7,526 bases of DNA from a bacterium ADurb.Bin374 (GTDB lineage: Bacteria; Riflebacteria; Ozemobacteria; Ozemobacterales; Ozemobacteraceae), in NCBI GenBank assembly GCA_002068715.1, contig MWAR01000486.1:1-7526 (forward strand). Direction: 5' to 3'. The notes under the pieces were generated by a model. The model was not told the origin of the DNA, searched no databases, and saw only the letters and a list, made by a program, of their open reading frames with translations. The translations under genes and the position numbers were made by a program. This document shows, one piece after another, positions 354 to 5,568 of the stretch (within the stretch, counting starts at the first letter, position 1; each line of letters begins with the position of its first letter).

Positions 354-1634
354 ATGAACATATACAACTGGCGACATGAAATGAAACGATTCGGACTGCT
401 GTGCGTTGCAGTCCTGTTTCTCGCCTCGACCGCTTCGACATGGCAGATTGCTGGAACGAGCGCCGGAGCCGACCCGCACGAGGCGGGAAGTGGGCCGGCG
501 GCGCCTGGATGGCGCATTCCAGCCGGAGCCGACCCGCACGAGGCGGGAAGTGGGCCGGCGGTGCCTGAGCGCACCCGAACGCAGTGCGTCGACCTGCCGG
601 AAATGAACACCTGGTTCCAGTGGAGCCGCGGCTGGATCGGCGGGGACGGCGTCTTCACGATTCCGCTCGACGGAAACCGCATCCTGTGGCTGTTCAGCGA
701 CAGCTTCGTCGGCCGGGTGGCCGAGGGACAGCGGCGGCGGGTGACGATGGTGCACAACGCCGTCGCGATCCAGGAGAACACCGCGGTACGACCGGAAATT
801 TTCTTTGGGAAAACAGCCGTCGGCGGCCCCGAGTCGTTTTTCGATCCGCCCGACGGTCGCGGATATTTCTGGCTGTTTCACGGCGCGACGAACCACCAGG
901 GGCTGTGGCTGTTCCTCATCCAGGTCGAGACGACCGACGCTTCGTCGGCGTTCGGCTTTCGGACGATCGGCACCTGGCTCGCCCATATTTCGAACCCGCA
1001 CGACGCTCCGCCCGCCTGGCGGGTCTCGATGCGTAAAATACCGTGGAAAATATTTCCAACGGACAAGGCCGGCGGCGATGATCCCGGACGGACGCTCCAC
1101 TTCGGATCATGGGTGACGCCGGTCGGAGACGATCTGTATATCTACGGCGTCGACGAGCGGCCCGGAAAGCGCGGCATGATCGTAGCGAAGGTTCCCGTTT
1201 CCCGCATCGGCCAGTTCGACCGGTGGCGGTTTCTCGGCCCCGACGGCTGGGTGAAGGATTTCCGGGCCTGTCGCACGCTGGCCGACGACATCACCACGGA
1301 ATACTCGGTCACGCCGATGAAGACCGGGCAGGGAGCGGAAAAGAGCCGGTATCTGCTGATCCAGTCAGCAGGGAACCTGTCGCCGGATATCCTCGCCCGC
1401 GAGGCCGCTTCCCCTGTCGGGCCCTGGAGCGAGCCACGTGTGATCTACACCTGCCCCGAACCTTTGCGGCGGAAGGGCGTCTTCACCTACGCAGCGAAAG
1501 CCCATCCCGAACTCTCTCGCGAGTCGGGCACGGTCATTTCCTACGTGGCGAACTCCGTGAATTTCAAGGACCTCATCGAGCACGCCTGGATCTACTGGCC
1601 CAGGTTCATCCTTCTTCCCGCGACGGGCAATTGA
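354..1634 (+). CDS. Secreted beta-propeller protein (DUF5005/DUF4185-like) with in-frame repeat insert
   Basis: This frame encodes 426 aa. ATG 354 is the outermost start; ATG 381 (residue 28 nt downstream, product beginning MKRFGLL) gives a more canonical Sec signal peptide, and neither has a strong Shine-Dalgarno, so the start is uncertain. After a hydrophobic segment at about residues 13-27 comes a Gly/Pro/Ala linker of two near-identical 20-residue units (A37-P56 and A57-P71). The globular part runs from about residue 78 to the end. It has 'GGDGVFTIPL', 'WLFSDSFVG' (112-120), 'TMVHNAVAIQ', 'YFWLFHGA', 'SWVTPVGDDLYIYG', 'SPVGPWSEPRVIY' (353-365) and 'TYAAKAHPEL...ISYVAN'. These blade-like strands and acidic loops match five-bladed, GH43/GH62-like propeller families of unknown activity, so a carbohydrate-binding or glycosidase role outside the cytoplasm is inferred. 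I cannot assign catalytic residues. The linker repeat looks like an insertion (see repeat entries). The coding call is secure; the exact family is moderately sure. Confidence 0.85.
   Translation: MNIYNWRHEMKRFGLLCVAVLFLASTASTWQIAGTSAGADPHEAGSGPAAPGWRIPAGADPHEAGSGPAVPERTRTQCVDLPEMNTWFQWSRGWIGGDGVFTIPLDGNRILWLFSDSFVGRVAEGQRRRVTMVHNAVAIQENTAVRPEIFFGKTAVGGPESFFDPPDGRGYFWLFHGATNHQGLWLFLIQVETTDASSAFGFRTIGTWLAHISNPHDAPPAWRVSMRKIPWKIFPTDKAGGDDPGRTLHFGSWVTPVGDDLYIYGVDERPGKRGMIVAKVPVSRIGQFDRWRFLGPDGWVKDFRACRTLADDITTEYSVTPMKTGQGAEKSRYLLIQSAGNLSPDILAREAASPVGPWSEPRVIYTCPEPLRRKGVFTYAAKAHPELSRESGTVISYVANSVNFKDLIEHAWIYWPRFILLPATGN
462..567 (+). repeat. Two in-frame tandem copies of a GC-rich palindromic element (period 60 bp)
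   Basis: Bases 462-507 and 522-567 are identical except for one C/T change (502 versus 562), with a period of exactly 60 bp, or 20 codons. Each unit contains an inner stem CCCGC/GCGGG (473-477 with 483-487) and an outer GCCGG/CCGGC pair (462-466 with 495-499). Because the period is a multiple of three, both units translate to AGADPHEAGSGPA and keep the frame of the host gene. A third copy lies inverted at 4026-4073, where 46 of 48 bases match 469-516. The position between signal peptide and folded domain is one where an insert would be tolerated. I infer a dispersed palindromic element that entered the gene and then duplicated. Confidence 0.85.
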
Positions 1635-3708: not shown

Positions 3709-3751
3709 CCTCTGTTCGCTTTGTGTCCTGGTATGTTGAAATTCCCTGAAA

Positions 3752-3831
3752 TCACCACGAAGGCACAAAGACACAAAGCAGCTTTATTGCATGTTCCATC
3801 CGATCTTCGTGCCTTGGTGCCTTTGTGGTGA
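3752..3831. repeat. 27-bp imperfect inverted repeat (TCACCACRAAGGCAC...)
   Basis: Arms 3752-3778 and 3805-3831 are reverse complements at 23 of 27 positions, around a 26-nt loop. Each arm is itself built from an 8-bp CACAAAGR-like unit. It shares AAAG/CTTTG and ACAC vocabulary with the repeat at 2259-2306, and the 15-mer CTCTGTGTCTCGGCG (3845-3859) follows 13 bp later, so all of these probably belong to one dispersed family. Confidence 0.8.
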
Positions 3832-3951
3832 ATTATGCTCCGGACTCTGTGTCTCGGCGGTGAAACGGTCTTTGTCTCTCGGTGATTCAGCGGGTGTGAA
3901 AACTTATGCGATCGTCCCCGCCTGGGTTCGCGAAGGTTTTGCGGGAAGTGG

Positions 3952-3957: not shown

Positions 3958-4025
3958 GCTTTCCGGGAGACGTTCGCGGGTTTCTGCTGCCCGCGAGGTG
4001 CCGGTAAGACCGGGCCCGGCTGAAC

Positions 4026-4073
4026 TGCGCCATCCAAGCGCCGCCGGCCCACTTCCCGCATCGTGCGGGTCGG
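4026..4073 (-). repeat. Inverted third copy of the GC-rich palindromic element, in the hydrolase leader
   Basis: Read on the - strand, these 48 bases match 469-516 (inside the beta-propeller gene) at 46 positions; the differences are at 4060 and 4037. The change at 4060 turns the imperfect inner stem into a perfect one, CCCGCA-TCG-TGCGGG (4055-4069). The copy ends 23 bp before the Shine-Dalgarno of the hydrolase gene, so it would be transcribed as part of that gene's 5' leader. Confidence 0.85.
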
Positions 4074-4110
4074 ACCAGGAAAACATCGCCAGATGACGGG
4101 GGAGATTTCG

Positions 4111-4659
4111 ATGGCGCAGAAGGAATATCAGCTGGGCACGTTCGTGAAGGCACTTGCGTTTGCCGCCGCAAAACACCGGAACCAGCGTCGCAAGGACGCC
4201 GAGGCGTCGCCGTATATCAACCATCCTATCGCCCTCGCGGATGTTCTCGTCAACGAAGGCAACGTGACGGACGACGTCGTTCTTTGCGCCGCCATCCTGC
4301 ACGACACGATCGAGGACACGAAAACGACGGCAGAAGAGCTGAAAGAACAGTTTGGGGCGAGAGTCACGTCGGTCGTTCTCGAGGTCACCGACGACAAGTC
4401 CCTCGACAAAGAGGTCCGGAAGCAGAAGCAGATCGAGCACGCCCCGCACGTCTCGCGCGAGGCGAAGCTGGTCAAGCTTGCAGACAAGATCTGCAACCTG
4501 CGCGACATCCTGGCCTCGCCGCCGGCCAACTGGACACCGGAGCGCAAACAGAGGTATTTCGAGTGGGCTTCGAACGTGGTCGCGGGCCTGCGCGGCGCTC
4601 ACCCGGGCCTCGAAGCCGTTTTCGACGGCCTCTTCGCGCGCCGCACCGAGCTCGGCTGA
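4111..4659 (+). CDS. Stand-alone HD-domain (p)ppGpp hydrolase, MESH1/SpoT-hydrolase type
   Basis: The product is 182 aa. ATG 4111 is chosen for GGGGGAG (4097-4103) 7 nt upstream; an ATG at 4093 is in frame but lacks such a site. The protein is one all-helical HD domain that hydrolyses the 3'-pyrophosphate of (p)ppGpp, given family knowledge. Metal ligands expected for MESH1 are all visible: H38 in 'YINHPI', H64-D65 in 'HDTIED' (with E68-D69), and D125 in 'KLADKICNLRD'. The N-terminal 'AFAAAKHRNQRRKD' and 'SVVLEVTDDKSL' are also typical. No synthetase, TGS or ACT domain is present, so it is a pure small alarmone hydrolase (NADPH phosphatase activity is also known for animal MESH1). It is cytoplasmic. 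Its leader is long and highly structured and carries the dispersed palindromic element, so post-transcriptional control is plausible. No synthetase gene is in the window. Confidence 0.9.
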   Translation: MAQKEYQLGTFVKALAFAAAKHRNQRRKDAEASPYINHPIALADVLVNEGNVTDDVVLCAAILHDTIEDTKTTAEELKEQFGARVTSVVLEVTDDKSLDKEVRKQKQIEHAPHVSREAKLVKLADKICNLRDILASPPANWTPERKQRYFEWASNVVAGLRGAHPGLEAVFDGLFARRTELG

Positions 4660-4807: not shown

Positions 4808-5568
4808 AACTGAATCGGGCTCTTGTAGGGCAGAAGCACCTTTTCCTCGACGGAAACGAGGCGATGGGGAAATTCCCGGCTCACCGTCCAGACGATGCGC
4901 TTGATGCCAGTCCATTCGCTGAAAACGAGGTATTCCACGCGTGCCTGCTTCTGATCCAGGAAGACTCGGGGCCGGAAGTCGATCGCGCGCCCTTTCTCGG
5001 CATCTTCTTTCTTGTACGCCCTCAGAATGCCGTTGAACGTCTCCTGGTCGAGGATCGGAAGAAACAGGTAATACACGGCGTGCCAGTGGGTATAGAACTG
5101 CTCGCCCGTCAGCACCATGATCGCCAGCTGAAGGAAACCATCCGGCGTGCCGTCGGCCACGATACTGCCGAGATATACGGGATCGTATCGGGTCGCGTCG
5201 CCTATGAAATATCTCTTTGGATATATTTTCTTGAATTCGGCGAAGCCGGGAAATGGCGTCTGGTCTTTGGGCCGTGCGTAGACGACGGGATGCCCGCCGA
5301 GTTCCTGAAGATCGTATACGAAGTCCAGGGCCTGCCCTGACGCGATGCCCAGCCGCGGAAAAAGCGCCAGAAACACGTTGGGGTCGTAGCCGCCCTTGTC
5401 GAGCGCCCCGCCCTTCGTCGTCAGCGCCTTCGGCGTCGGCTTACCGTGCAGTTTCTGAGCCTCCTTCAGGATCTTCGCCATCCCAGCGAGATCGAGCGCC
5501 TCTTCCGCGAACGCGCCGGGGCTCAGAATCAGGCCGAGCAACAGAAAAAACGTCGTGAATGTGCGCAT
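4804..5568 (-). CDS. Secreted/periplasmic protein of unknown function
   Basis: The product is 254 aa. ATG 5568-5566 is chosen because GGGAGG (reverse complement of 5576-5581) lies 7 nt upstream and the product then starts with a textbook Sec signal peptide at residues 1-21 (MRTFTTFF, a leucine-rich core, then GAFA before the cut). The frame stays open another 55 codons upstream, but that stretch is low-complexity and unconvincing. No lipobox or later membrane segment is visible. The mature protein has an 'LYGKPTPKALTTKGG'-like helical start, an aromatic-rich middle ('RYDPVYLGSIVADGT', 'YTHWHAVYYLFLPIL') and a strand-rich end ('ARVEYLVFSEWTGIKRIVWTV'). I recognise no family. It is convergent with the hydrolase and divergent from the helicase, so it is likely transcribed alone. 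Confidence 0.85.
   Translation of the reverse strand: MRTFTTFFLLLGLILSPGAFAEEALDLAGMAKILKEAQKLHGKPTPKALTTKGGALDKGGYDPNVFLALFPRLGIASGQALDFVYDLQELGGHPVVYARPKDQTPFPGFAEFKKIYPKRYFIGDATRYDPVYLGSIVADGTPDGFLQLAIMVLTGEQFYTHWHAVYYLFLPILDQETFNGILRAYKKEDAEKGRAIDFRPRVFLDQKQARVEYLVFSEWTGIKRIVWTVSREFPHRLVSVEEKVLLPYKSPIQF

Follow-up and report, generated by a model that had tools for sequence, protein, structure and literature searches.

Short palindromic DNA elements, probably mobile, lie between genes and in frame within genes of Ozemobacteraceae

Rickettsia and Wolbachia are the best-known carriers of palindromic repeats that sit in frame inside protein-coding genes; such repeats are also reported from Methanocaldococcus jannaschii and enterobacteria. 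According to passages of PMC2229807, the Rickettsia palindromic elements (RPEs) are 105 to 146 bp long and insert within genes, guanylate kinase being the tested case. Protein-coding palindromes are described for Wolbachia and M. jannaschii in sections of PMC2996958, and enterobacterial mobile repeats of small size whose open frames have become joined to genes in part of PMC2759123. Here we describe palindromic DNA modules of the bacterial family Ozemobacteraceae, very probably a family of short mobile elements that are non-autonomous and have multiplied in some of its members. The modules are scattered, often in tandem, mostly between genes and also in frame within genes whose relatives have the site empty. 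We found no description of the element in the titles and abstract openings of the open literature searched on Ozemobacteraceae or Riflebacteria repeats and on in-frame palindromes. Here in-frame palindromes occur in a little-studied lineage, at high copy number, with an allelic copy-number difference and clear empty sites. The element makes three things testable: the mode of movement, selection for keeping the frame and the entry of new linkers into essential proteins.

A preliminary description of this DNA likened the repeat to RPEs, and in behavior the likeness is supported: like the RPEs and the Wolbachia palindromes, these are dispersed hairpin repeats found between genes and in frame in unrelated conserved genes (excerpts of PMC2229807 and PMC2996958). 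The modules measure 60 bp (type A) and 81 or 84 bp (type B), with a further form of 56 bp, and so fall outside the 105 to 146 bp given for RPEs in the consulted part of PMC2229807; they also share their first hairpin, form tandem units inside genes and belong to another lineage. The palindromes of M. jannaschii and the PARCEL repeats are likewise palindromic DNA with coding potential (PMC2996958), but PARCEL is a tandem domain of repeat proteins, whereas the Ozemobacteraceae element has a peptide without fixed sequence, because several frames are used. With the REP, BIME and REPIN repeats and their Y1 transposase, RAYT, the element shares short hairpins, high copy number, arrays and a mostly intergenic location (PMC3733652, in part). 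Unlike them, it has no GTAG/CGTC tag in the first or last 10 bases on either strand (27 type A and 15 type B copies) and no linked Y1 gene as judged by the type A model on the fetched loci, and it inserts repeatedly in frame into genes. ERIC/RU and Correia elements are also mobile and small, and their open frames can be joined to genes (portions of PMC2229807 and PMC2759123); Correia and ERIC copies have a target-site duplication (a table of PMC2229807), whereas none was detected among 112 single type B copies.

The window, by which we mean the whole 7,526-nt stretch analyzed, holds three copies of type A, with these features.

354..1634, + strand: DUF4185/DUF5005 protein, the open reading frame hosting the tandem; start at 354 or 381, with 603 also possible
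462..468, + strand: by direct reading, the same 7 bp with which a unit ends, possibly the remnant of a further type A copy
469..528, + strand: type A, full 60-bp unit; reads in frame with the ORF (ADPHEAGSGPAAPGWRIPAG) and follows a signal-peptide-like N terminus
529..567, + strand: type A, second tandem copy, cut to its first 39 bp; the sequence departs from the unit after 567
4014..4073, - strand: type A, full unit, intergenic, in reverse orientation, directly 5' of the HD-domain gene
4093..4659, + strand: HD-domain protein (Pfam HD_4, 69.7 bits), a neighbor outside the element

The initial reading had two units with a 60-bp period and one mismatch in 46 bp, and direct comparison agrees: 462-507 and 522-567 are 98% identical, with one mismatch, at an offset of 60 bp. 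The natural repeat unit is 60 bp and begins CCGACC. A third copy, said to lie outside genes in the opposite orientation, is there at 4014..4073 (469-531 and 4011-4073 are 90% complementary); the codon-usage gene finder places it between coding regions, 13 bp ahead of the HD-domain coding signal, and a GTG start at 4063 would extend the HD-domain ORF into it. What was called a palindrome is better described as two consecutive hairpins. The covariance model scores 82.7 bits at 469-530, a window copy that belongs to the model's own training set. That the repeat is no product of chance follows from its recurrence in a related genome (E 4e-20) and in two more of the 24 family genomes by plain BLAST.

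The tandem had been placed between a signal peptide and a folded domain. By eye it does lie in frame after a signal-peptide-like N terminus, but the gene finder detects the coding signal of the DUF4185 gene only from 588, past the element, and there is an in-frame ATG at 603. Pfam gives the ORF 30.9 bits for DUF5005, above the cut-off, and 36.2 bits for DUF4185, below it. The starts at 354 and 381, the signal peptide seen by eye and the similar N terminus predicted for relatives suggest that the tandem may be translated. The insertion in the window is nonetheless less secure than the others, because the start codon may lie 3' of the element. Among the 605 homologous proteins found, we inspected seven sequences. 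The closest, 99% identical to the window protein outside the gap, has one unit against the window's two, which we read as a copy-number difference between very close alleles. A search of orthologues for an empty site had been set beforehand as a test, and the next three homologues spanning the region (83, 74 and 66% identity) have neither unit. The last of these and one other among the best relatives, P0005, are labeled Candidatus Ozemobacteraceae.

Type A runs from CCGACC into a short hairpin, followed by a spacer and then a longer second stem-loop. Type B has the first hairpin in common with type A and then an outer stem around two hairpins; it is 81 bp long, with an 84-bp variant. The 56-bp form is without the third hairpin of type B and occurs at two intergenic loci (L096, 784-839; L098, 2003-2058). 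Type A copies from the window and three family genomes (Go_SlDig_bin_287, hereafter G001, with G013 and G014) form a gap-free alignment of 62 columns. Our type A alignment holds 27 of 33 copies, leaving out the truncated second window copy, L026 with its altered right half, and L030, L034, L037 and L040, which repeat used copies or are their tandem neighbors; the type B alignment holds 15 of 16. The column pair 7-17 is C-G in 17 of the 27 type A copies and G-C in the other 10, and pair 8-16 shows four pair types. Cells changed on both sides of a stem number 46; shuffles average 15.3 and slid controls give 2-7, and none of 500 shuffles equaled the covariation score. Two other measures are weak: seven pairs changed on both sides against 5.8 expected from shuffles (136 of 500 reach it), and 21 of 500 shuffles match the count of further pair types. 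Aligned in this way, the copies indicate that the stems keep pairing through compensatory changes between genomes. GGA stands in the loop of the main hairpin in 26 of 27 type A and all 15 type B copies; a loop kept while the stems vary could point to loop recognition.

The family is unevenly spread. By plain BLAST, type A is present in 3 of the 24 Ozemobacteraceae genomes; the type A model at E up to 0.01 gives matches in six (10 in G001, 7 in G002, 37 in G014, 74 in G013, of which part are type B, and a single weak one apiece in G020 and G021). The type B model at E up to 0.001 matches four of the 24, with at least 150 copies in G013, 14 in G014, 4 in G001 and 1 in G002. Types A and B are thus strong in four family genomes, and a search of 39 genomes of the phylum at E up to 0.001 gave matches in four, all of them from the family. 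Element-bearing genomes reach about 7 Mb, and the assemblies are fragmented. The window's exact core, a pattern specific to its own version and blind to those of G013 and G014, occurs in the species collection only in Go_SlDig_bin_287 (Candidatus Ozemobacteraceae), on two contigs with two matches each, 60 bp apart. A copy search in relatives was the other test set at the outset; it returned many more, within genes as well as between them, and in either orientation. Neither result named beforehand as speaking against the idea, a lack of other copies or the same peptide in distant orthologues, came about, the latter judged on the sequences inspected.

Gene calls came from a codon-usage gene finder trained on the element loci, which found the main genes of the window and made one call that is likely false (5281-5338). 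To be called inside a gene a site must lie in one unbroken frame, so frame-breaking insertions would be missed. For type A we chose 74 sites, mainly strong ones, out of the window and the 130 model matches; the set includes some weak and some type B matches, and part of it coincides with the 135 type B sites. Ten of the 74 lie inside genes, six at a gene edge (the window tandem among them) and 58 between genes. For type B we used 150 listed matches of 169, all from G013: of the 135 sites in that genome, 24 are inside genes, 10 near an N terminus, 2 near a C terminus and 99 intergenic. Since 99 of 135 are intergenic though 77% of the G013 type B loci is coding, genes are avoided but far from excluded. 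All 24 inside sites have coding signal on both flanks, 10 of them in sense and 14 antisense to the gene, and five of the six frames are used; at the ten inside sites of the type A model four frames are in use, three of them sense and one antisense. Insertion without breaking the frame, which the preliminary description had proposed, is seen at 10 of the 74 sites of the type A model and at 24 of the 135 of type B, with a gene finder that accepts open frames only. Codon scores are weak at L001 and L009, the two inside sites of G001, yet both show a whole-unit insert relative to their relatives.

The host genes are a varied lot. Pfam families in type A hosts are DNA_pol3_delta2 (two stretches around the insert), Porphobil_deam, saccharopine dehydrogenase domains, FAD_binding_2 with Succ_DH_flav_C (L-aspartate oxidase-like), trehalase, polysaccharide pyruvyl transferase, a PEP-utilising enzyme and a protein kinase; two of ten type A host frames have no family, and L091, inside by the type A count, was left out of the Pfam search. 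Type B hosts include YdjC (insert inside the domain match), Epimerase (two stretches), HhH-GPD (MutY-like), and sensor and signaling proteins; among the 28 host frames (24 inside, 4 at an edge), nine have no family and two have only families below the cut-off. L271 and L272 are two sites in apparently one gene. A PPDK/PEP-synthase-like gene of G013 (L075 and L218) contains units of both types, in two or more places.

Four host genes besides the window's have empty sites in relatives. In G013, HolB (the delta-prime subunit of DNA polymerase III) contains two identical 20-residue units absent from all 21 relatives spanning the site, the nearest at 79% identity; 23 relatives were compared, two of them not spanning the site, and one of the 21 is probably a DnaX paralogue. 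HemC (porphobilinogen deaminase) of G001 contains two 20-residue units, absent in 19 of 19 relatives, and saccharopine dehydrogenase of the same genome one such unit, absent in the four relatives compared. YdjC of G013 has a single 27-residue unit that is absent in the one relative, from G012. Palindromic DNA is thus inserted in frame in unrelated protein genes, without counterpart in relatives. The structure model of HolB has a mean pLDDT of 87.1, against about 36-63 for the insert blocks, and its best PDB matches are clamp-loader subunits.

The lengths of the modules suit life inside genes. Among 150 type B copies, 121 are 81 bp, 19 are 84 bp, one is 78 bp and nine have other lengths, so that 141 are divisible by three; tandem spacings are 81 bp in 14 cases and 84 bp in one. 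The full 60-bp length is found in 49 of the 56 best-scoring matches, and it is the 56-bp form that breaks the multiple-of-three rule. Type B lengths not divisible by three occur at none of the 24 inside sites, none of the 12 gene-edge sites and 9 of the 99 intergenic sites, a weak comparison and a partly circular one, as an open frame was demanded. Of the 27 type A copies, 17 are free of stops in all six frames (5.5 in base shuffles), as are 14 of the 15 type B copies (0.65 in base shuffles). This is suggestive, not a formal test, because the copies are related and not independent. Tentatively, and at a little under an even chance, we would see here a frame-neutral mobile element. Its successful forms would be divisible by three and nearly free of stops in six frames; it would enter genes either way round, grow in tandem and lengthen essential proteins by disordered segments, with a copy number of 150 or more in one 7-Mb genome.

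How might such an element move? Transposases of the IS200/IS605 and REP kinds recognize hairpins on single-stranded DNA. A trans-acting enzyme could in the same manner recognize the element's hairpins on single-stranded DNA and copy or move the module beside a short CC-rich site. Tandem arrays would grow because the right end resembles the left, or by slippage. In-gene insertions would survive since the usual lengths are divisible by three and stops are absent from most copies in most frames, each unit adding a predicted 20 or 27 linker residues that would be tolerated in loops, between domains or after signal peptides. Across 112 single type B copies the right flank, CC(G)(T/A)CC, is conserved, and the flanks show no correlation. 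A left end that runs from CCGACC into a hairpin, the conserved right flank and the absence of a detected target duplication would together be the layout that one expects of single-strand transposition of the IS200/IS605 or REP kind, to which we give about one chance in three.

A Y1 transposase search of 12 genomes found one gene each in G013 and G014, none in G001 or G002, and one or two in five other genomes that have no element match or one weak one. The pattern does not follow the element, and we rejected Y1 presence as its tracker. On the loci around six Y1 genes the type A model found no match; the nearest type B pair among the matches listed for G013 is about 6.6 kb from the Y1 gene, on the same contig. 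The single Y1 genes of G013 and G014 (L112 and L113) look RAYT-like by eye and are a candidate, but unlinked, partner.

Other explanations deserve a hearing. The 20-residue peptide could be a functional tandem motif of an ordinary protein repeat, its DNA symmetry incidental, as the exact 20-codon period and the in-frame position would have it. The same DNA, however, occurs between genes, inverted, in unrelated genes, in other frames and on the opposite strand; relatives of the window protein are without the peptide, and the stems covary. Because copies are read in different frames this idea is already refuted, and we leave it next to no probability. Far closer to the data is an extragenic repeat of the REP/BIME type with its main job in non-coding DNA, as a terminator or in RNA stability, its in-gene copies being rare accidents or misannotated starts. 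The hairpins are stable, intergenic sites number 58 of 74 for the type A model and 99 of 135 for type B despite the 77% coding share of the B loci, and REPs in coding regions, some from misannotated starts, are reported in the part of PMC3733652 consulted; the window's own copy could be such a case. The 24 type B sites with coding signal on both sides, the whole-unit inserts in HolB, HemC, saccharopine dehydrogenase and YdjC, and the GTAG/CGTC tag in 0 of 27 and 0 of 15 copies speak against it. On balance we think it unlikely, while giving it real weight; it overlaps with a mobile, multiplied palindromic family, and both could be true together.

That mobile family must also be set against three further alternatives. 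GGA is a CsrA-binding motif, and with GGA in nearly every main-hairpin loop and CsrA in 22 of 24 family genomes, the element might be a structured regulatory RNA such as a CsrA decoy. CsrA is also present in most element-free genomes, however, so its presence does not distinguish; the Rfam covariance models gave no match over the window's copies at E up to 1, and the orientation relative to host genes is mixed. We regard a regulatory RNA as improbable. Inserts that ribosomes skip are known in other systems, and hairpins within coding sequence bring programmed bypassing to mind, the in-gene copies then going untranslated. Bypassing needs neither divisible lengths nor open frames, yet the in-gene copies have both (the gene finder itself requires the open frame), which makes it very improbable. 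Fragmented assemblies and several copies at contig ends could suggest an assembly artefact or chimeric contigs. Against this, separate genomes share the family with lineage-specific compensatory stems, and the inserts compared are whole units; we consider an artefact extremely improbable.

A few smaller matters remain. Similarity searches against plasmid and phage DNA gave short, weak matches only, and a 19-base core had no occurrence in the viral contigs searched. An Rfam match to mir-999 elsewhere in the window was weak, under the gathering score, and was discarded. By eye, the window has other intergenic inverted repeats, at 2250-2310 and 3750-3835, of type gacgccgagacacagag and caccacgaaggcacaaag, unrelated in sequence to the element. 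The element lies, again by eye, just past a signal-peptide-like N terminus in three ORFs: L079, L040 and the window's 354-1634.
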